DNA of 64,000 bases, from positions 8,243,241 through 8,307,240 of the forward strand of contig NC_062213.1 in assembly GCF_902686445.1 (NCBI RefSeq), written 5' to 3'. Within the stretch, counting starts at the first letter, position 1; each line of letters opens with the position of its first letter. The position numbers and the translations under genes are program-made. Source of the DNA: Sciurus carolinensis. Taxonomy: Eukaryota > Chordata > Mammalia > Rodentia > Sciuridae. Under the pieces are notes generated by a model, which saw only the letters and a program-made list of their open reading frames with translations, had not been told where the DNA came from and did not search any database. Shown here piece after piece: positions 8,876 through 28,440 of this stretch.

Positions 8876-10740
8876 TCAAATTATCAAAATCTGAGCTTAA
8901 AAAGGAATATCACCATGGACACTCCTAAAATCCAGAGGATCATCAGAAACTATTTTGAAAATCTATACTCCAATAAGTTGGAAAATCTTGAAGATACTGA
9001 CAAATCCCTAGAGACATATGACCTACTCAAATTGAACCATGAGGGTAAAGAAAACTTAAACAGAACAAATCAAGTAATAAAATTGAAGCATCCATCATAA
9101 TCTTTTAACAAAGAAAAGCCCAGGACCAAATGAATTCTCAGCTTTAAAGAAGAACTAATGCCAATCCTTCTCAAATTATTCCATGAACTAGAAAAGGAGG
9201 GAACTCTGCCAAACTCATTCTATGAAACCAGTATCACCCCAATACCAAAACCAGACAGACATATCAAGGAAAGAAAAGTACAGGTCAGTATCCTTGATGA
9301 ACATAGATGCAAAAATTATTAATAAAATATTAACAAACCACATACAAAAGGACATTAAAAAGATAGTGTACCATGATCAAATGGGTTTCATCCCAGAGAT
9401 GCAAGGTTGGTTCAACATATGAAAATCAATAAATGTAATTCACCACATAAATAGAGTCAAGGTCAAGAATCACATAATTATCTCAATAAATGCAGAAAAA
9501 GCATTTGACAAAATACAGCACCCATTCATGTATAAAACACTAGAAAAACTTGGGATAGAAGGAACATAGCTGAACATTGTAAAGGCTATATCTGACAAAT
9601 CCAAGGATATTATACTGAATGGATTGAAACTGAAAGCATTTTCTCTAAAAACAGAAACAAGACTAGGATACCCACTTTCACCACTCCTATTCAACATAGT
9701 CTTTGAAACTCTAGCCAGAGAAATAAGTCAAAAGAAGGAAATGAAAGGTATAGGAATAGGAAAAGAAAAGCTCAAATTATCTGTTTGCTGACAATATGAT
9801 CCTATAGTTAGACAACCCAAAAAACTACACCAGAAGACTTCTAGGGCTCATAAAGGGATTCAGCAAAGTAGCAGGATATAAGATTGAAATAAATTAATCA
9901 CATTCCTGTACCCCAATGATGAATCTGCTAAAATAGAATTTAGGAAAACTATCCCATCACAATAGCCTCAAAAAGTGAAATAAAATACTTGGAAATCAAT
10001 CTAACAAAAGAGGTGAAGGACCTCTACAGTGAAAATTATAGAACAAAATTAAAGAGGATTAAAAATTAAAGAAAAAAATTAAAGAGGACCATAGGAGATG
10101 GGAAGATCTCCCATGTTCTTGCATAGGCAGAATTATTATTGTCAAAATGGCCATAATACCAGAAGCACTATACAGATTCAATGTAATTCCCATCAAAATG
10201 CCAATGATGTTCTTCATGGAAATAGAAAAAGCAGGTACAAAATTCATTTGGAAAAATAAGAGACCCAGAATAGGCAAATCAATATTTAAATAGAAAAAGG
10301 AAAGCAGGAGGCATCTCAATACAAGACCTCAGACTATACTCCTGAGCTATAGTAACAAAAACAGCAAGGTATTGGCACCAAAACAGACATGAAGACCAAT
10401 GGAACTAAATAGAAGACACAGAGACAAACCCACTTAAAAACAGTTATCTGATACTAGACAAAAGTGCATAAAACATACATTGGAGAAAAGATAGTCTTTC
10501 AAAAAATGGTGCTGGGGAAACTGGAAATCCTTATGTAGGATAATGAAATTTAACCCCTATCTCTCACCCTGCACAAAAGTCAGTTCAAAGTGAATCAAAG
10601 ACCTAGGGATTAGATCAGAAACCCTGCAACTATTAGAAGAAAATGTAGGCCTAACACCCCAACACATCAACACAGGAACTGTCTTCCTTCACAATACTCC
10701 TAAAGTGCAAGAAATAAAATTGAAAATCAAAAGTGTATGG

Positions 10741-10893
10741 GGGATAATACCTACATAGGAAAGATAATACAATGAGACAAACATCAATATCCTATGTGCA
10801 TGTATGCTTACACAAACGGTGTGACTCTACTTTGTGTACTACCAGAGAAATGAAAGTTGTAACCCATTTGTGTACAATGAATCAAAATTTTTT
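10741..10893 (+). mobile_element. Short L1 3'-end insertion no. 1
   Basis: It resembles the last ~150 bp of the L1 3' UTR at 23820-23957: 'ctatgtgcatgtatgcttac', 'gtaacccatttgtgtacaat', A-rich end. It is bounded by 'aaaagtgtatgg' at 10729-10740 and the same motif ending at 10907, a target-site duplication. The host L1 ORF2 reads through if the insertion is removed. Confidence 0.65.
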
Positions 10894-10907
10894 AAAAAAG
10901 TGTATGG

Positions 10908-11111
10908 AAGAAGGAAATGAGAGGGATGTGGGTATGAAAGATGGTGGAATGAGACAGACATCATTACCTTATGTACATGTATGATTACACGAATGGTATG
11001 AATCTACATTGTGTACAACCATAGAAATGAAATGATGTACCCCATTTGTGTATGATGAATCAAAATACAGTCTGTAAAAAATTAAAAGCTAAATAAAAAT
11101 AAAAAGAAAAG
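10908..11111 (+). mobile_element. Short L1 3'-end insertion no. 2
   Basis: This is a second, longer relative of the preceding insertion with the same internal blocks ('cttatgtacatgtatgatta', 'ccccatttgtgtatgatgaa') and an A-rich tail. It lies between two further copies of 'aaaagtgtatgg' (10896-10907 and 11112-11123). The three shared motifs suggest repeated insertion at one site or internal duplication. Confidence 0.6.
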
Positions 11112-11616
11112 AAAAGTGTATGGAAAAAATTTAAAAGCTTCTTCACACAAAAAATAGAAACAATTATGAGCATGAAAAAAAAAAAACCCTACAGAATGGG
11201 AGATCTTTGCCACCTACTCCTTAGGGCATTAATATCCAAAATATACAAAGGATTCACAAAACATAACACCAAAACAACAAATAACCCAATCCGTAAATGG
11301 GCAAAGAAACTCAACAGAAATTTCTTAAAAGAAGAAACACAAATGACCAACAAATATATAAAAAAATGTTCAATATCTCTAGCAATCATGGAAATGAAAA
11401 TTAAAACTACACTAAGATTTCATCTCACCCCAGTCAGAATGGCAATGACCAGGAATACAAACAACAGTAAAGCTGGCAAGGTTGTGGGGAGAAAGGTACA
11501 CTTGTACACGGCTGGTAGGATTGCAGACTAGTGCTGCCACTCTGAAAAGCAGTGTGGATGAAACTAGGGGTGGAACCACCATACGACCCAGTTATCCCAC
11601 GCCTCAGTATATATCC

Positions 11617-11633
11617 AAAAGATTTCAAATCAG
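11617..11633. repeat. Left target-site duplication of the ERV retrocopy
   Basis: The 17-mer 'aaaagatttcaaatcag' sits immediately left of the insertion and recurs at 15833-15849. The first four A cannot be separated from the poly(A) tail on the right side, so the secure duplication is 13 bp. Confidence 0.85.
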
Positions 11634-11820
11634 CTCTTCTCACTTTCATGCTTTCTCTCTCTTACTCACTTTCTTTCTCTCTCCTCCTCACTTTTCACAC
11701 TCTCTTGCATGCACTCTCTCTCTTTTCCTTTCATTTTCTCTCTTACCCTGCAGGGAGACACTGTTTGCTTAATAAACCCTCTTAGTTCCCATGTCCGGAG
11801 TGGTTTCTGGGTTCTTACAC
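11634..11820 (+). other. 5' R-U5 of the ERV retrocopy
   Basis: A pyrimidine-rich R (ctctctctctt-type tracts) matches the 3' R copy at about 15690-15823. AATAAA lies at 11771-11776 inside R, as in gammaretrovirus-like LTRs, and a short U5 ends in 'gggttcttacac'. The copy starts within a few bases of the position expected for the cap site. Confidence 0.8.
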
Positions 11821-11838
11821 TGGTGCCGTGACTCGGAT
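11821..11838 (+). promoter_or_regulatory. Primer-binding site, tRNA-His type
   Basis: 'tggtgccgtgactcggat' is an 18/18 complement of the 3' end of mammalian tRNA-His(GUG) including CCA. The H-type primer assigns the ERV to the group that includes HERV-H/RTVL-H-like elements. Confidence 0.9.
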
Positions 11839-11926
11839 GGGCTCTTCCACGGTCTCTTAAGCAAGTGGAACCCCATCTGATGCCCCAGAGCCTCCTGGAC
11901 ACAGCCTCACCTTCCATTCACCCGGA

Positions 11927-11950
11927 TGATCTGCTCTGCTCTGCTCTGCA
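11927..11950 (+). repeat. (CTCTG)n pentamer repeat in ERV leader
   Basis: Four consecutive ctctg-type pentamers lie in the leader, upstream of a good splice-donor match, 'TTG|GTGAGTT' at 11972/11973. Confidence 0.7.
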
Positions 11951-12365
11951 TTCACCACCAGACTTCAGATTGGTGAGTTCCCTAGGCGGGCTCCCCTAGG
12001 CCAACTTAAACACTCCTCTGCCGACCTGAGAAGCAATTGTTGAGTGTCCGGGACCCTTGAGGTGGCTAAGGGTGGGGGTATCCCCAGTCACGACTTTTAT
12101 AGTTACAGCTGGTCCCCTTAGTTGGTCTCATCTGCCGGGTGGGTTCCTGATTTTATGGTGGAGATTCTCAGAGTTGAGGCCCCTCTTCACGCTCACACTC
12201 ACTCTTGAAAACCCTGACGTCAGGTCCTCAACTCTCTCCGCTTTTGCCTGGCCCACATTGATGCTTGGGTGACGACCCCATCATTGTGCTGCCTTCTCAT
12301 CTCCAGCCTACTAATCTGTGGCCTCAGGACGCCGGGGCACAGACTCAGCTGTATCAGTCTCCACC

Positions 12366-12890
12366 ATGGGATCTGGGTCCTCCGTTCCAGTAGATTCACC
12401 CCTGGGATTAGACAACTTTAGAACCCTTCACCTGACCCCCAACTTAAAGTCATCAAAACTTAATGATATTTGGCCACAGTACCCTTTAGATAATCAAACT
12501 AAAATGGTCACATAATGGCACACAGCTTCTGTGAGCGAGTGGGCAGATGGAAAGGGATTCCTTATCTTCAAGTCTCTTCTTTCTTGCGCTTCTTTGCTCT
12601 TCCTGCAAACTCAAACACCTCCTTTTGGCTTCTTCTCCCCCTCTTAATCCCTCCTCCTCCTCTGACTTCAACTCAGCTAACAAACCACTCTAATACCGGT
12701 CCACTGTGACAGAGGCCCCTCCGACCCCTGCTTCTCCATCTCCTTTACCCCATTCTGTTTCTGCTTCCATTCCCCTGCCTGGCCCACCTAGTCCTCCTGC
12801 TACGAGGTCCTGAGCACATATTCTAGTCCCCCTACGGGAATTAGCTGGTGTGGAGGGAGTAACCAGGCCAATAGTCAGTGGCATGTCTCA
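12366..12890 (+). pseudogene. Decayed gammaretrovirus-type gag remnant (matrix to start of capsid)
   Basis: A frame starting at ATG 12366 runs to a stop at 12513-12515. It shows the matrix-like wording LHLTPNLKSSKLNDIWPQYP seen in class I ERV gag. Another frame after the stop carries 'GRWKGIPYLQ', also matrix-like, then a proline-rich stretch. A third, near 12820-12880, carries 'PLRELAGVEGV', resembling a capsid start. At least two frame changes plus in-frame stops make it non-functional. Confidence 0.65.
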
Positions 12891-15491
12891 GTAAGGAGTA
12901 TGATATAGCAGCCCCATTCCTTGAAAAGTAGTGGGAAATAATGTTTCACAATTTTCTGCATCTAAACCTGAATTGATTACTCTCCAGGAAAAAGGGTTAA
13001 AATGCCCTAGGCATCAAGTTTCTGCTAGAACCTGTTAGCTCCTTTCAGATCTCAGTCAAGGCTTACATTGAAATGTAAACGGAGGAAGCCAGAAGGCACA
13101 GTGGGAGACCAGTCTCAAACCCAAGAAAAGAAACAAAAGTGTCCATTTTAAATTTCTCCTGGGCTGCAACACAGAACACTTTATCTCTCCCTCTCACCTC
13201 TTTGCCCTCTCCTTCTCGCTCTCTCATGCTTTCATTAATTGCCATTATCATTTTTCTTCTAGGACTCTTGTTTTTCTTAAATGCTATATTTTTGAGCTCA
13301 CAATTTTGATCCTACAAACTTAGGTTAATGATTTTTTGATCGGTTCTTTTCATCCAAATCTAGAGTTATTTTTGAACATCTGTTACGTTGCAATGGACAT
13401 AAACATTCTATCATTTAATGTTCTATTATAGGACCTGTCATCAATAGGGTACATGTAAAATTTGTTACTTTTTACACTGAGATTAAAAAAATTTAACTGT
13501 AAAGCTATTTCTAAAAGTTAGTGAGAGCCTGATTTTTTTAGTTAATATTGTGAAACATGAAAGCATTTTGCCACTTTGCCACACAAAAGGAAAGTTAAAA
13601 GCTCTCTCAGCCTTTCTTTAATTCATGTTTTAGATATAATGTTAAATTGTGTTAACTCATATAGACTCAGGAATCAATATATGTAAACTTCTTAGAATGA
13701 CATTTAAGAAAGGAGTAAAGATCAACATCAGAATTAGAAAACTTCACTTAAGATTTGTGAAGAGCCATGCCTTACCTGAGATAAGGCTCTGCCTCTCCTC
13801 CCACCCTGCTGCATGTTAGAACAGTTCCAAAGTAATCCAGACTTTAACTCACTTAAAGTTGTGTTCAAAAGTTTGATGTTTGTTGTAAAGTTTACTGTGA
13901 TCTCAAATGGGATATAATGAATAACTCAGCCAAAATTCAAGATAGCTATTGCACAAACTGAATGTGTTACTGTTGGTGATTCCATTTTGTATTTTCCTTG
14001 GAAACTCTAACTGTTGCCTGATTAATATTCTGCAGAATCACCTATAGGACAGATAATGTAGACCCCAATTAGATAAAAGGGGGTAAAAAACTGTACAGTC
14101 ATAGACATTGAAATTAAAGCCCAGCACTCTTACTTTATGACTGGTGAGACTGGTTTGCTGGATGGTTAAGATCAAACTTAGAGATTGAAATTAAATACAG
14201 AGGCCAAGAAAAACCAGTATCTTGCCCTCAAAGTCAGCCTGAACCCAGAGAACAAGAGGACTTCTCTAAGGAGCTTTGCAACTCTGGGTCACATGACCTC
14301 CCCATCAGGGAGATTAATGAGGCCACTAGAAGATGAAAAGCCAATCAGTGCACCTTCTGCAGAGGAGGGTCATTGGAAAAGGGAGACATCCTTGATGATT
14401 CCAAGGGAAGCCACCTCATCGCGGAGAACCTGCCTAACAAACGGAGTTAAGAAGTTGCTCTCAGGTTCTCTACAAGTGACCCCTGTGGGAACTCAGCTGC
14501 CTCTTTAACAAGACAGAAACAAGGCAATTTGACCAGCTTGATCTTAGATACCTAGCAAAATGGTCAAAACCAAAATATAAAGACTGGAAGCTACAAAAGA
14601 GATTCTTAGGCAAATGTGCCTGATAACTATCAAGAGAAACTGCCAGAGTCAGAAGGTTTTAGTCAGTTTAAGGCCTACAGACACAGGTAGGCTTAATCTA
14701 TGTTTGCTAGTAACAGAAGTATAGAGATCTCTACTAAACACAGGTTATACCGATAAAGGGATATTTTACAAAAATCAGATGACATTAAGTAGCTTAACTA
14801 TATTTTCTGGGGACATCAATGACATTAAGAGTTAAATGTTGTGTTTACATTCCTGATAACCTGGACAATGTTAAAGTTCCCAAATAAAGGCCTTGTCCTC
14901 TCCAGTCTTTGTTAGGCCGTGTTATGGGAACAACTTCTCAGTTCTTCCACCCCCTAGTGAGGGATTATTGACTTCTGTCATCTTCATGATATTCATTGGC
15001 ATGTTCCAGATTCTGCAACATTTATCTTGTACTAATCTCATTTCAGTACTCATGTCTTTTTGTTCTTCTCTCATAGAAGCACCCACTCCCAGATGCCTTT
15101 ACAACCTGCTCTTTCCCCAACCAGACTTCCACCATAGACCCCTCGATTGACCCAATTTCTAAAAATGGAACACCAAACTGCTTGCCCCACACTTCCCCTT
15201 TCCAGCTCGAAGAAGCCAGAGTGGTCGTCGTCCCCCTTTCCCTACAGCAGTAAGGAGTTCCTAAGACTAGAATTGGGGACAGGCAGTTAGTGTAGAAATA
15301 GGCGATCAGTCAAATTGAGGAAATGAAGTCCATGAAAGCCATCTGCCCCTGGAAGTCTGGAAGTTGGAAACTGCTCCTGGGAGAATGAACTTTTTACATC
15401 TCACCTGCAAAACCAGGCCTAGTCACGTAGGCAGGAAGGAGAGATAAGGGGGGAAAGAACTGGAGAACAAAAGATCTTCTTTTAAAAACAG
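12891..15491 (+). other. Decayed ERV interior
   Basis: No intact pol or env is recognisable over 2.6 kb, far less than a full gag-pol-env interior, so large deletions are present. The short frame near 14890-15150 has a hydrophobic stretch that could be an env remnant, but I cannot support that. Several AT-rich parts have no visible coding trace. Confidence 0.55.
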
Positions 15492-15502
15492 AAATGGGGG
15501 AA
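15492..15502 (+). promoter_or_regulatory. Polypurine tract
   Basis: 'aaatgggggaa' directly precedes the TG that opens U3 at 15503, the usual position for the plus-strand primer of a retrovirus. Confidence 0.85.
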
Positions 15503-15823
15503 TGTAACATAATATAAAGCTGCTCCCCTGCCCTTTACACTGCAGTCATTTCCCACCTCCCAACTTCTTACATCCTAGCTAGCTATTGGTTCATCAGTCA
15601 GCTTGCACGTATCCTTCTCCATTATTGGTCCCATTAACCCACGAAATTTGACTGCTTAAGGAAAACTCCCCGCCATTTTCTCTCTCTTCTTCTCCTCACT
15701 TTCATGCTTTCTCTCTCCTACTCACTTTTCACTCTCTTGCACACGCTCTCTCTCTTTTCCTCTCATTTTCTCTCTTACCCTGCAGGGAGACACTCTGTTG
15801 GCTTAATAAACCCTCCTTATGTG
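15503..15823 (+). other. 3' U3-R of the ERV retrocopy
   Basis: U3 opens with TGTAAC and contains two inverted CCAAT boxes (attgg near 15586 and 15625). R repeats the pyrimidine-rich tract and carries AATAAA at 15805-15810. Thirteen bases after the signal the sequence turns into 13 A (15824-15836), with no U5, as expected for a polyadenylated RNA end. Confidence 0.82.
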
Positions 15824-15832
15824 AAAAAAAAA

Positions 15833-15849
15833 AAAAGATTTCAAATCAG
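15833..15849. repeat. Right target-site duplication of the ERV retrocopy
   Basis: This is the second copy of 'aaaagatttcaaatcag'. The L1 reading resumes after it with 'catactacag', matching the uninterrupted L1 at 23455-23464. Confidence 0.85.
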
Positions 15850-16159
15850 CATACTACAGTGACACAGCCACATCAATGTTTATAGCAGCACAATTCACAA
15901 TAACCAACCTATGGAACTAACCTAGGTGCCCTTAAACAGATGAATGGATAAAGAAAAGGTGGTATGTATACACAATGGAGTATTACTCAGCTATAAAGTA
16001 GAATGACTTTATACATTTGATGGTATGTGGATGAACTAGAGACCAGCATGTTAAATGCAATAAACCAATCTCAAAAAGTCAAAGGTTGAATATTTTCTCT
16101 GATATGTGAAAATCAATCCAAAATAAGGGGGTGGGATAAAAACAAAAAGAAAAAGAGAG
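15837..16159 (+). mobile_element. 5'-truncated L1, 3' part (second segment)
   Basis: It continues the L1 of 8876-11633 through the ORF2 C-terminus, where 'tggagtattactcagctata' is visible, into the 3' UTR. The A-rich end (16138-16158) is the site where the compound L1 begins. Confidence 0.8.
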
Positions 16160-16164
16160 GAGAT

Positions 16165-16174
16165 CCAAAATGGC
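16165..16174 (+). promoter_or_regulatory. YY1-like motif at L1 5' end (copy 1)
   Basis: 'ccaaaatggc' lies a few bases from the 5' end, the same position as the YY1 site of primate L1 that guides transcription start. Confidence 0.5.
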
Positions 16175-16577
16175 AAAGTAGAGGGAGGCTGTGTTCCTTG
16201 TTACTCTGTAAATCAGGTTTCAAGCAGAGGAAAAGCCATTTCATTTCTCCGTGAGGCAGTCTTTACTGCTTATCAATCCCCAGCTGTTTACCCCTTTTGT
16301 CTACCTCGATCACCTGCGGTCTGCCAGCATATATACTACTTTTCGAGTGCAGATTGCTCACTGACTGCTGCCTATCATCCACCATTTGCCCATTTGCCTG
16401 CCTCTTTCCTGCCCATCACCTGCCTTTCACCTACCCATCACCCACTGCCCAAGGTCCCCCTGTCGATCATCCACTGGGAGCCTGCAGATGGCCACAGACC
16501 ACCAGTGAATCTCTAGTTGCCTACTGTTACTGGAAGTTCACTGTCACAGTACTCACTTGGTTTGGTTACACATGGCT

Positions 16578-16589
16578 GCCGCCATTTTG
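16578..16589 (-). promoter_or_regulatory. YY1 motif in L1 5' UTR (copy 1)
   Basis: 'gccgccattttg' is a textbook YY1 site in inverted orientation. It is retained at the equivalent position of copy 2 (17835-17846). Confidence 0.55.
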
Positions 16590-17219
16590 GAACAACAGCC
16601 AGGACCTACAGGACTCCCAGCCTAACCAACCACACCCCCACCTCCAGGACCCCCAGCCCAACCGACCCCACACCACATGAACTCGATGCCCATACCCCAA
16701 GCTGCCCCATTTGCCAACACATTTGGAAGCCAGTGCAGCAATCTTGGATTATCCTGGACATGGAAGCTGCCATCTTTAGGTGGGGAAAATCCCATCCTGA
16801 GACACCTACTGGAGACTGGAAGCTCATTGTCAGAAGAGATTTTGGAAGCCTGAAGGGACACTACAAGCCTATGGGGGAAAACTACAATACCCCAGATCTG
16901 CACTAATAGAGGGGAAGATACATAAGCAACATGAAAAAACAAGGGAAGAATTGTTCCAAACAAACCAATATTCTATGTTAACAGAATCCAATCACAGCAT
17001 GGTAGAAGAAATGTCAGAAAAGGAATTCAGAATATACATAATTAAAATTATTTGCAAAGCAAAGGATGAGATAAGAGAGCATATGCAAGCAATGAATGAT
17101 CACTCCAATAAGCAGTTGAAAGAGCAAAGGCAGGAAGTAAAAGATCATTTCAACAAAGAGACAGAGATTCTGAAAAAAAAAAGATCTTTGAAATGAAGGA
17201 AACAATAAACCAAATTAAA

Positions 17220-17429
17220 AACTCAAAGAAGGAATTCTCCAGTGATTTACTTTGGACTGTGGCTCCGTGCGCTTCTTTCATTGGTGCTGAAACCCGGGAG
17301 GGGAAACTCCTCAAATATTGAGGACCCCCTCCATCTCCCCAGGTCAAAGCTTCTTGCCCTCATCTGCCTTCTTGAGCGCTGGCTACCCTGAAACCACCAC
17401 CGGCCAATTTCTAGAACTTAACTTCCTGA
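17220..17429 (+). mobile_element. ERV U5-PBS-leader fragment between two L1 5' ends
   Basis: After L1 ORF1 breaks off, the sequence becomes a retroviral U5 end ('ctccgtgcgcttctttcatt'), a primer-binding site, and about 130 bp of leader, then passes directly into the L1 5' end at 17430. No R, U3 or gag is present. It is not the ERV of 11634-15836, since primer type and leader differ. Confidence 0.7.
17282..17299 (+). promoter_or_regulatory. Primer-binding site, tRNA-Phe type
   Basis: 'tggtgctgaaacccggga' matches the complement of the mammalian tRNA-Phe 3' end at 17 of 18 positions (C to T at position 7). Confidence 0.75.
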
Positions 17430-18827
17430 GGATCCAAGATGGTGGACTAGAGGGAGGCTGCGTTCCTTGTCACTCTGTAACTCCAATTTCAAGCAGAGGA
17501 TATCTGTTTCTTGGTGAGGCAGTTTTTGCTGCTTATCAATTCCCTGGTGTTTACCCCATTTGTCTGCTGTGATCACCTGCAGTCTGCCAGCATATCGACG
17601 CCTTTTTTGAGTGCAGATTGCTCACTGTCAGGCGCCTATCATCCGCCATTTGCCTGCCTCTCACCTGTCCATTGCCTGCCTTACACCTATCCACCACCCA
17701 ACGCACAAGGTTCACCTCCCAATCGTCTGACAACAGTCAGTAAACTGATCGTCAACCGCCAGTGGAGCACTGGCTGCCTGCTGTTGCCTGGAAGTTCACT
17801 GTCACAGTACCTGCAGGTTTGATGACACGTGGCTGCCGCCATTTTGAGACAACAGCCAGGCCCCGTAGGACCCCTGGCCAGACAGACTGAGCCCCATCTC
17901 CAGGATCCCTCAGTCTGACAGATCACTCCCTGCCTCTGGGGCCCTCACATCAACTGACTACTCCCTGCCACCAGGACCCCCAGACCAACTGACTGCGCCC
18001 TATCACCGGGAACCCAGACCGACTGATTGCACCTGGCCTCCAGGATCCCACAACCACACAAAACACACCGGACCTCCAGGATCCCTGCCTGACCAACCAC
18101 ATTCCGCCTCCAGGACCTCCAGCTGACCATGTCCACACCCTGAGCTGCAACACATTTGCCAACACATTTCAAAGCCAGAGTGGCCATCTTGATAATCCTG
18201 GAAGCCATAGCTCTGATCTTTAGATGGGGCAAATCCCATCCTGAGACACCTGCTGGAGACTTGAAGCTCATTGTCAGGTACCTCTCATGCATCAGACTAC
18301 TGAACACTGGGAGGTTTCATTACTATATGACTGTTACACTGTAGATTTTCTTTTTTCTCCTTATAGAAAAAATTTAAGTTTATATTTCTTTACTTTTCTT
18401 GCTCTCTTTTCCTTTTGTTTACCTGTTCCCTCAGAGTCTCTTTCTCCCTTTTTTGCATGCTAACATCCAATTTCTTTTGATTACACTCTCACCATTTCTA
18501 TTATCTAGAACTTCTGTATAATCTTTTCTTATCCCATTAACAGCCACATTCTACATCCCTCTGCATTCTCCATTAGAATCTGCAGACCTTATTGTAAATC
18601 TGTTTGTTTTATTGAAGATAATATTTTAACTCATTCTGTTTATTATGACAATTTTGTTATTGTCCTCATAGGGACTATTTGGTCTAGGATTGCATAGTGT
18701 CTGAATTGGGCACTGATAATATTGATCTCCCCTTAAAGAAAGGGTTTTGGAAACCTATAGGGCCACTATAAGTCTATAGGGGGAACTCTGCAATACCCCA
18801 GATCTGCACTGCTAGAGGGAAAGATAC
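17430..18827 (+). promoter_or_regulatory. L1 5' UTR / internal promoter region (copy 2)
   Basis: It starts 'ggatccaagatggtggacta', with YY1-like 'caagatggtgg' at 17435-17445 and an inverted YY1 site 'gccgccattttg' at 17835-17846. From about 17870 to 18130 imperfect units of roughly 30-33 bp ('cctccaggatccc...gac') repeat about eight times. Copy 1 has only two or three such units. Confidence 0.7.
18278..18738 (+). other. Intron-like segment of the L1 5' UTR
   Basis: This is the 461-bp stretch missing from copy 1. It begins after 'ttgtcag' with 'gtacctctc' and ends 'ctccccttaaag', giving CAG|GT...AG. It is rich in pyrimidine runs and is followed by 'aaagggttttgg', which lines up with 'aagagattttgg' right after the copy 1 junction. 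Confidence 0.7.
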
Positions 18828-19843
18828 ATGAACAACATGAAAAAACAAGGGAAGAAAATGATCCAAACAAATCTAGATTCTATATTAATAGAATCCAATG
18901 ACAGTATGTTAGAAGAAATGTCAGAAAAGGACTCCAGATTATACATGATTAAGATGATTCACGAAGCAAAGGATGAGATAAGAGAGCAAATGCAGGCAAT
19001 GAATGATAATACCAATAAGCTGAAAGAGCACCTGCAGGAAGCAAAAGATCATTTCAACAAAGAGATAGAGATTCTCAAAAGGAACCAAACGGAAATCCTT
19101 GAAATAAAGGAAACAATAAACCAAATTAAAAACTCAATGGAAAGCATCACCAAAAGACTAGACCACTTGGAAGACAGAACCTCAGACAATGAAGACAAAA
19201 TATTTAATCTTGAAAATAAAGTTGCCCAAACAGAGAAGATGGTAAGAAATCATGAACAGAATCTCCAAGAACTATGGGACATCATGAAAAGACCAAATTT
19301 AAGAATTACTGGGATTTAGGAAGGCACAGAGATACAAACCAAAGGAATGAACAACCTATTCAATGAAATAATATCGGAAAATTTCCCAAGCCTGAAGAAT
19401 GAAATGAAAAATCAAATACAAGAGGCTTACAGAACAACAAATGCACAAAATCACAATAGATCCACACCAAGGCACATTATAATGAAAATGCCTAACATTC
19501 AAAATAAAGATAGGATTTTGAAGGCCACGAGAGAAAAGCATCAGATTACATATAGGGGGAGACCAATACAATAGCAGCCGACTTCTCAACCCACTCTAAA
19601 AGCTATAAGGGCCCGGAACAACATATTTCAAGCTCTGAAAGAACATGGTTGCAACCAAGAATCCTATACCCAGCAAAACTAACCTTCATATTTGAAGATG
19701 AAATAAAATCATTCCATGATAAACAAAAGTTAAAAGAAATTACAAATAGAAAGACTGCACTACAGAATGTTCTCAACAAAATATTCCATGAGGAGGAAAT
19801 GAAAAACAACAATGGAGGTCAGCAAAGGGAGGAATTACCTTAG
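18828..19843 (+). pseudogene. L1 ORF1 (broken)
   Basis: ORF1p is the RNA-binding trimeric chaperone of L1. The frame opens at ATG 18828 with an N-terminal region and a long charged coiled coil (about residues 55-145, including LEDRTSDNEDKIFNLENK). It stops at a TAG in 'RPNLRITGI*' (19317-19319), where the RRM-like domain begins. The same frame resumes to a second TAG at 19572-19574. The C-terminal domain ('QPRILYPAKLTFIFEDEIKS') is in another frame to 19843. Two premature stops and one frameshift make it inactive. Confidence 0.85.
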
Positions 19844-22800: not shown

Positions 22801-23721
22801 AAGACCAGAGACCCTGCATCTTGTAGAAGAAAAAGTAGGTCCAAATCTTCAACTTGTTGGCTTAGGATCAGACTTCCTTAACAGGACTCCCATAGCACAA
22901 GAAATAAAAGCAAGAGTCAATAACTGGTACAGATTCAAACTAAATAACTTTCTCTCAGCAAAGGAAACTATTGCAATGTGAAGAGAGAGCCTACAGAGTG
23001 GGAGAAAATCTTTGCCACTCATACTTCAAATAGAGCACTAATTTCCAGAATCTATAAAGAACTCAAAAAACTCTACACCAAGAATACAAATAACCCAATC
23101 AACAAATGGGCTAAGGATATGAACAGACGCTTCACAGAAGAAGATCTACAAGCAATCAACAAACATATGAAAAAATGTTCTCCATCTTTAGTAATAAGAG
23201 AAATGCAAATCAAAACTACACTAAGATTCCATCTCACCCCAATCAGAATGGAATTATCAAGAATACAAGCAACAATAGGTGTTGGCGAGGGTGTGGGGGA
23301 AAAGGTACACTCATACATTGCTGGTGGGACTGCAAATTAGTGCAGCCACTCTGGAAAGCAGTGTGGAGATAGATTCCTTAGAAAACTTGGAATGGACCCA
23401 CCATTTGACTCAGCTATCCCACTCCTCGGCCTATACCCAAAGGACTTAAAATCAGCATACTACAGAGATACAGCTACATCAATGTTCATAGTTGCTCAAT
23501 TCATAATAGCCAGACTGTGGAACCAACCTAGATGTCCTTCAATTGATGAATGGATAAAGAAACTGTGATATATATATACAATGGAATATTACTCAGTTAT
23601 AAAGAATAATAAAATTATGGCATTTGCAGGCAAATGGATGAAATTGGAGAATATCATGCTAAGTGAGATAAGCCAATCTCAAAAAACCAAAGGACGAAGG
23701 ATCTTGCTGTTAAGCGGATGA
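19899..23721 (+). pseudogene. L1 ORF2 (endonuclease-reverse transcriptase, broken)
   Basis: ORF2p nicks target DNA and reverse-transcribes RNA. The frame starts at ATG 19899. An APE-type endonuclease region is visible (ITLNLNGLNS near the start, CCLQETHL, and FSAAHGTFSKIDH..LSDHNG near 20470-20600). The reverse transcriptase shows [14 protein letters not shown] (21300-21345), [14 protein letters not shown] (21863-21904) and the catalytic box FVDDMILY (21987-22010). The zinc-knuckle region near 23290-23350 includes [14 protein letters not shown] stop ends the first frame at 20160-20162, and frame changes occur near 20165-20380, 21715, 22250, 22700 and 22980, so it is inactive. Confidence 0.88.
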
Positions 23722-27610: not shown

Positions 27611-28440
27611 GCATGCCATCTCCACCATTCCAACTCAGACATTCCACCCCAACCAGGTCATCTCCACCCTTCCATGTCCACCATTCCATGTCAACCATTC
27701 CATGTCCACAATTCCATGTTCACTATTCCATGTCTGCCATTCCATGTCCACCATTCCAAGTCCACCCTTCCATCTCCACCATTCCATGTCCACCTTTCCA
27801 TCTCCACCATTCCATGTCCACTATTCCATGTTCACCATTCCATGTCCACCATTCCAAGTCCACCCTTCCATCTCCACCATTCCATGTCCACCATTCCATG
27901 TTCACCATTCCATCTCCACCATTCCATGTCCACCATTCTATGTCCACCATTCCATGTCCACCATTCCATGTTCATCATTCCAAGTCCACCATTCCAAGTC
28001 CACCATTGCATGTTCACCATTCCAAGTCCACAATTCCATCTCCACCATTCCATGTTCACCATTCCAAGTCCACCATTCCATGCTTACCATTCCAAGTCCA
28101 CCATTCCATCTCCACCATTCCAAGTCCACCATTCCATGTCCGCCATTCCATGTCCACCATTCCATGTCCACCATTCCTTGTCCACCATTCCATGTCCACA
28201 TTCCATGTCCACCATTCCAAGTCCACCATTCCATGTCCACCATTCCATCTCCACCCTCTCACCTCCACCATTCCATTCCATCATTCCATCTTGGCAATGC
28301 CATCTCCACCATTCTGTCTCAGCCATTCTGTCTCCACCATTCCATGTTCACCATTCCATGTTCGCCATTCCTTTTCCATCATTCCATCTCAGCCATACCA
28401 TCTCTGCTATCCCATCTCAGCCATTTCACTTCAGCCCAGG
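27611..28440. repeat. 14-bp minisatellite, about 59 units
   Basis: The unit is ccattcc(a/t)(t/a)(g/c)tcca, mainly 'ccattccatgtcca' with variants 'ccattccaagtcca' and 'cccttccatctcca'. The centre is the most regular and both edges decay. Because the unit is not a multiple of three and contains no stop in any of its six frames, three overlapping plus-strand ORFs (271-321 codons) and several minus-strand ORFs run through it. They translate into 14-residue periodic nonsense (HSMSTIPCPPFHV-type), not genes. Confidence 0.95.

Follow-up and report, generated by a model that had tools for sequence, protein, structure and literature searches.

How an endogenous retrovirus (ERV) came to begin at R, to end in adenines and to lie inside an L1 is the question raised by one locus of Sciurus carolinensis, contained in a window (the whole stretch analysed) of 64,000 nt of contig NC_062213.1 (positions 8,243,241-8,307,240). 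The element proper occupies positions 11635-15836 of the window and has the order of an RNA. R-U5 and a tRNA-His-type primer binding site come first, followed by a splice donor that this copy did not use, the leader and a gag-like remnant; after a long middle part in which the open frames are short come the polypurine tract, U3, R with its AATAAA and 13 A. Judged from its sequence and from that of its relatives, this element is almost certainly a copy of an ERV RNA made in trans by L1, a process that would have happened repeatedly to RNAs of this group. An earlier sequence-only reading had placed the element at 11617..15849; it is indeed there, and its start had to be moved to 11635, being 11617-11634 the target-site duplication. 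The parts that carry the argument, by position in the window, are:

11617..11634, plus strand: left target-site duplication (18 bp), an exact repeat
11635..11819, plus strand: R-U5 of the 5' long terminal repeat (LTR), without U3, from alignment to proviral LTRs
11821..11838, plus strand: primer binding site of tRNA-His type, from identity to printed primers
11966..11978, plus strand: splice donor CAGATTG^GTGAGT, unspliced in the window copy and used in spliced copies (18 more junction loci)
15060..15076, plus strand: splice acceptor (exon from 15077), used in spliced copies
15492..15502, plus strand: polypurine tract, recognised by eye
15503..15674, plus strand: U3 of the 3' LTR (TGTAAC...)
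15675..15823, plus strand: R of the 3' LTR, with AATAAA at 15805-15810; A15675 is homologous to the start site of related copies
15824..15836, plus strand: tail of 13 A, 13 nt after AATAAA, its last 4 A common to the duplication
15833..15850, plus strand: right target-site duplication, an exact repeat

The claim that the element starts at R and not at U3, with R-U5 and primer binding site at the left and polypurine tract, U3 and R at the right, was borne out by comparison of the LTRs within the window. The 5' end lies within the LTR: 11635-11672 matches 15691-15728 at 95% and there is no U3 ahead of 11635. The two R copies sit in a CT-rich array and align ambiguously; relative to the start site of related copies, the 5' end is about 11-16 nt inside R, so the window copy is nearly, perhaps not quite, full length. 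The polyadenylation signal of the left R (11771-11776) was read through. The 13 A are placed as had been noticed before, and are not LTR sequence, since the left copy, past its AATAAA, continues into U5 and the primer binding site where the right copy has A's. The window copy lacks the two complete LTRs and the 4-6 bp duplication of an ordinary provirus, and presents an R-U5 5' LTR, a U3-R 3' LTR, poly(A) after R and a duplication of variable length (14-18 bp), which are the features of ERV processed pseudogenes as in PMC5016936. The structural hallmarks given for HERV-W-type (human ERV W) processed pseudogenes are present except the local TT before the nick.

The target site is bordered by L1 sequence on both sides:

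10500..11616, plus strand: L1 flank, left, to the extent examined
15851..16090, plus strand: L1 flank, right, collinear with the left one

The duplication, AAAAGATTTCAAATCAGC, is exact at 18 of 18 positions. Its four leading A's are shared with the tail, and its length is thus 14-18 bp (13-17 bp in the sequence-only reading); duplications of 5-15 bp are given for HERV-W processed pseudogenes (PMC5016936). The 14-mer GATTTCAAATCAGC has no further occurrence on the plus strand of the window. The location within an L1 was upheld by an alignment through the junction: with the element and one repeat removed, the joined flanks align to a second L1 of the window (22990-23693) along 705 columns at 76%, the 24 gaps being elsewhere. 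A single repeat copy stands at the junction in this alignment, as the sequence-only reading expected of an empty site; this site is paralogous, not orthologous. The host looks sciurid from an L1 ORF2 piece near the element: three proteins of Sciurus vulgaris lead its named eukaryote matches (81-84% identity), one of Ictidomys tridecemlineatus (84%) stands lower in the list, and a closer match to the same piece (91%) is unnamed. Quiescence of long and/or short interspersed elements (LINE, SINE) has been noted for the ground squirrel in a review (PMC5857283). As a separate observation, 16160-18907, past the host L1, resembles 17431-18907 at 74-84%, as though two L1 5' regions stood head to tail.

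The 2.8-Gb genome of Sciurus carolinensis was searched with a U3-R query, which gave 2914 candidates; 40 of these were scored and twenty stretches around the best matches were compared in pieces. Proviruses and solo LTRs with both edges read have U3-R-U5 in 12 of 12 cases, with a 5-bp duplication that is exact in 11 and matches at 4 of 5 positions in L026. This agrees with the expectation of two full LTRs and a short duplication for a provirus, and none of the 12 ends naturally at the points where the window copy ends. Eight of the twenty stretches were left out of this duplication test (L009, L014, L015, L022, L023, L024, L027 and L028) for having tailed, mixed, nested or cut LTRs. Two of those deserve description: L009 (3548-4485) contains a complete LTR and, about 220 nt on, a second U3-R with an A tail, perhaps from a transcript that read through one LTR and received its poly(A) in another LTR downstream; L028 (4948-5300) is a U3-R with an A tail and no body, and looks like a 5'-truncated copy.

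Copies with a tail at the end of R are numerous. The pattern TTAATAAACCCTN{3,15}A12 occurs at 33 distinct places in the genome, 30 of which (window included) fit the R end, against 2 for the reversed-pattern control; of the other three, C4:80595590 is tailed a few nucleotides further on and two look like chance. The 29 R-end places outside the window have R followed by A's in every case and 29 different flanks. For a second R-end motif on the plus strand, 99 places continue with A8 (reversed-pattern control 0) and 144 with U5 (control 0), so that 99 of the 243 perfect places with either ending (41%) are tailed; these are counts of exact motifs on one strand, not a family total, and one row per place was confirmed on part of the list. 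The tailed forms are unspliced (the window copy and two others read to both ends), precisely spliced, R-only and 5'-truncated.

The flanks of 47 tailed loci were compared by script, looking for exact repeats between the 5' flank and the flank after the tail, with 2162 mismatched pairings as null. Repeats of at least 10 nt were found at 33 of the 47 loci (26 of 2162 in the null) and of at least 12 nt at 26 (5 of 2162). Shorter repeats are weak, because the null reaches 92/2162 at 9 nt and 272/2162 at 8 nt, and 10 nt was taken as the line. Two of the 33 were discounted, L014 (misplaced) and L080 (AT-simple). In a second sample, comprising 17 plus-strand places of the second motif from the top of the list, repeats of at least 12 nt were present in 7 loci versus 1 of 272 mismatched pairings. 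Many copies thus share the R start and poly(A) end with different duplications, the check that the sequence-only reading had proposed. At the nick site of 35 duplications TT stands ahead in 15 and T in 22, the background of TT before A runs in the window being 8.5-12.7%.

The spliced set comprises L014 and L068-L085. In L014 the equivalent of window position 11972 is joined exactly to 15077, a GT...AG stretch being removed, and R is present at both ends with a tail. Of this junction's 21-mer the genome has 12 exact occurrences and 7 with a single mismatch; only these 19 were used, since a tolerance of up to 3 mismatches gives 145 matches against 37 for the reversed pattern. The leader is joined to the last exon in all 19 loci read, and 17 of them have an A or A-rich tail at the R end or up to about 7 nt beyond.

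The 5' ends point to the start of transcription. Of 34 rows, 11 have GATC or GATT at the start site, ten of them within 4 nt of the duplication and one (L040) 13 nt from a weak one; in six (L029, L030, L052, L053, L083 and L084) nothing stands between the duplication and the G. At the same site 18 3' LTRs have CCATC (16), CCGTC (one) and CTATC (one), and GATC in none. Reverse transcription can copy the cap as G, and the simplest reading is a start at A plus a G copied from the cap, with some scatter.

The smallest tailed copies consist of R without U3. In the first sample (29 tailed loci of the first motif) U3 was seen in 8 and unseen in 21; L037 has its U3 further upstream, leaving 20 without. 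A repeat of 8-21 nt stands beside R in 17 of these 20 (at least 10 nt in 14), with none for L041, L042 and L057. The second sample contains 9 loci with U3 and 8 without; among the latter, 6 are flanked by repeats of 12-17 nt, the exceptions being L098 and L105. One of the 9 with U3, L101, is cut within U3 and has a 14-nt repeat; L062/L043 is also cut within U3, with a 16-bp repeat. Both samples together give 28 of 46 tailed loci without visible U3, 20 of the 28 with a flanking repeat of at least 10 nt. It is rather likely that this non-autonomous sciurid ERV group has been a standing substrate of L1, with about 4 in 10 perfect-motif R ends tailed and not followed by U5, about half of the sampled tailed loci R-only, and a SINE-like class whose source RNAs, about 150 nt long, have both their start and their end inside a single LTR. 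If so, acceptance by L1 would be a property of the LTR's own R RNA, neither HERV-W proteins nor a long genome being responsible.

The R-only loci might instead be 5'-truncated copies of long RNAs. L1 often stops early, and 5' ends inside R are seen in 6 of the 17 first-sample R-only loci that have a repeat (L031, L032, L046, L047, L048 and L055; L050 is ambiguous), as truncation would have it. Against this, 8 of the 17 have their first base no more than 2 nt from the ATCTTTTC/ATTTTCTC start that longer copies use, and most of these 8 carry the added G. In L040 the same start follows a weak 8-nt repeat by 13 nt, it is also where L090, L094 and L097 of the second sample begin, and the 5' end of L038 is some 12 nt upstream of it. 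Stops at random would not gather in this way, and truncation as the source of the class is unlikely. Another possibility is an SVA-like, L1-dependent composite family in which one master locus with R-U5...U3-R-A, and not many proviruses, makes most tailed copies. The abundance of tailed copies would suit it and the R-only copies might constitute a small separate family; the tailed bodies are nevertheless varied (unspliced, spliced, R-only and truncated), their R ends and their U3 each come in at least two kinds, and R-only copies carry no U3 promoter, all of which makes a single master quite improbable. Since identical ends are repeated at many places with different duplications, an ordinary provirus that later lost the left U3 and the right U5 by deletion or recombination is refuted for practical purposes: the family does contain proviruses and solo LTRs from which to start, yet such losses give neither an A tail at the polyadenylation site nor an 18-bp duplication at the trimmed ends. 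An artefact of assembly or contamination, conceivable in a genome assembled as contigs, has a negligible probability as well, the window being inside a 209-Mb contig, with flanks collinear with L1 and dozens of independent loci in agreement.

Copying by L1 in trans is thus preferred. RNA polymerase II would have transcribed a short gene-poor ERV from at or near the U3/R boundary, with polyadenylation where R meets U5. L1 proteins would have captured this transcript in trans and begun its reverse transcription at a nick within an older L1, giving an insertion R-U5...U3-R-A(n) between the copies of an 18-bp target-site duplication; unspliced, spliced and R-only RNAs of the group would have followed the same route. 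Anatomy, tail, duplications, splice junctions, start sites and exact-motif copy counts were read directly, and the length of the duplications, the A tails, the preferred nick and the truncated 5' ends suggest L1 as the enzyme. Several observations weigh against this explanation: the window nick site is CC/AAAA and not TT/AAAA; the window copy falls 11-16 nt or so short of the start of its relatives; there is no counted repeat of at least 10 nt at 16 of the 47 tailed loci; templated bases replace the G in L036 and L049 (CATC) and, further upstream through GCCATC, in L038 and L095; and the spliced copies include L079, which closes with a complete U5 and is untailed, L069, whose 3' end is missing, and three with A-rich tails in place of pure ones (L074, L077 and L085). 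L079 may be either a read-through copy or a spliced RNA inserted retrovirally. For two unspliced loci among the 16, L033 and L034, the true 5' ends were later read and showed, respectively, an exact duplication of 16 bp and one with 15 of 16 positions alike; the extended sequence of L037 is still short of its 5' end.

Processed pseudogenes of HERV-W were reportedly described in Old World primates by Pavlicek in 2002. They are treated in PMC5016936 (Grandi 2016) and in PMC5537654 and PMC6995185 (Grandi and Tramontano 2017): 135 of 213 HERV-W loci are of this class (PMC5016936), a minority without the pre-gag stretch is read as the result of splicing (PMC6995185), and a 2017 review presents HERV-W as the sole HERV group specifically mobilised by L1, with determinants that "still remain to be clarified" (PMC5537654). 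HERV-W shares with the present family R-U5 at the left, U3-R at the right, the A tail, an L1-type nick with duplication and a high number of copies. The present family differs in its sciurid rodent host, the tRNA-His-type primer binding site, the lack of a recognised pol or env in the window copy, the common R-only class and the full splice from leader to last exon. The likeness concerns published hallmarks, and membership in HERV-W is not claimed. The primer binding site (11821-11838) is identical to the first bases of a human tRNA-His reverse primer (PMC12217144) and to a HERV-H primer binding site primer (PMC3253121); the comparison with HERV-H concerns this site, and again no membership is claimed.

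ERV-derived sequence moved by L1 in trans is also found in SVA, a composite with one 3' ERV piece, whereas the RNA described here is collinear with an LTR element. Among the open-licence papers listed in the searches, no title or opening of an abstract names an L1-processed ERV in a sciurid, most subscription papers being outside that search. HERV-W already provides an example of this kind; what appears to be new, within the open-licence papers searched, is the host, the scale and the R-only class. A second case in another mammalian order, with spliced, unspliced and R-only copies side by side, makes the shared features candidate determinants of acceptance by L1 and the unshared ones not. From the copies one can also read, to nearly a single base, where the RNA of an old ERV was started, spliced and polyadenylated, and their scale and the R-only class make a proper survey worthwhile.

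The body of the element has three further features:

12366..12900, plus strand: gag-like remnant with broken frames, labelled by eye and from recall; the stretch is retained in proviruses L012, L023, L025 and L026
13400..13410 (at 13407), plus strand: point where 625-805 nt present in proviruses L012, L023 and L026 are absent from the window copy; ends not GT-AG
14182..14505, plus strand: open frame with four unnamed relatives (70-75% identical) from short ENA contigs; a repeat, any protein being putative

Proviruses L012 and L026, with two complete LTRs about 4.4 and 4.8 kb apart, have the same gene-poor body, so the short body is a family trait and not damage of the window copy alone. An intron was considered for the missing 0.6-0.8 kb and ruled out for want of GT-AG. 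The sequence-only reading had proposed capture of a full ERV transcript by L1 in trans; the capture stands and "full" does not, since the proviruses read are short and gene-poor and the window copy misses about 0.6-0.8 kb of three of them. The body is a gene-poor form of the family, not a whole retrovirus. It yields 48 stop-to-stop pieces of at least 28 aa, of which 9 and then 41 were run against Pfam (the other 7 lie before gag, two of these within the 9), with matches to unrelated families only (E 0.016 or worse) and nothing retroviral. Two gag-like pieces had no retroviral match in PDB, a homologue search with one of them gave none, and no relatives were found in viral_contigs and genome_contigs; the single Rfam match, under the gathering score, was disregarded. 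No pol or env was found in the window copy. The frame at 14182-14505 is a repeat present elsewhere, as three of its four relatives are 88% identical to the fourth. Finally, away from the element, 27659-28387 is an array of about 52 copies of the 14-bp unit CATGTCCACCATTC with three long overlapping open frames upon it.

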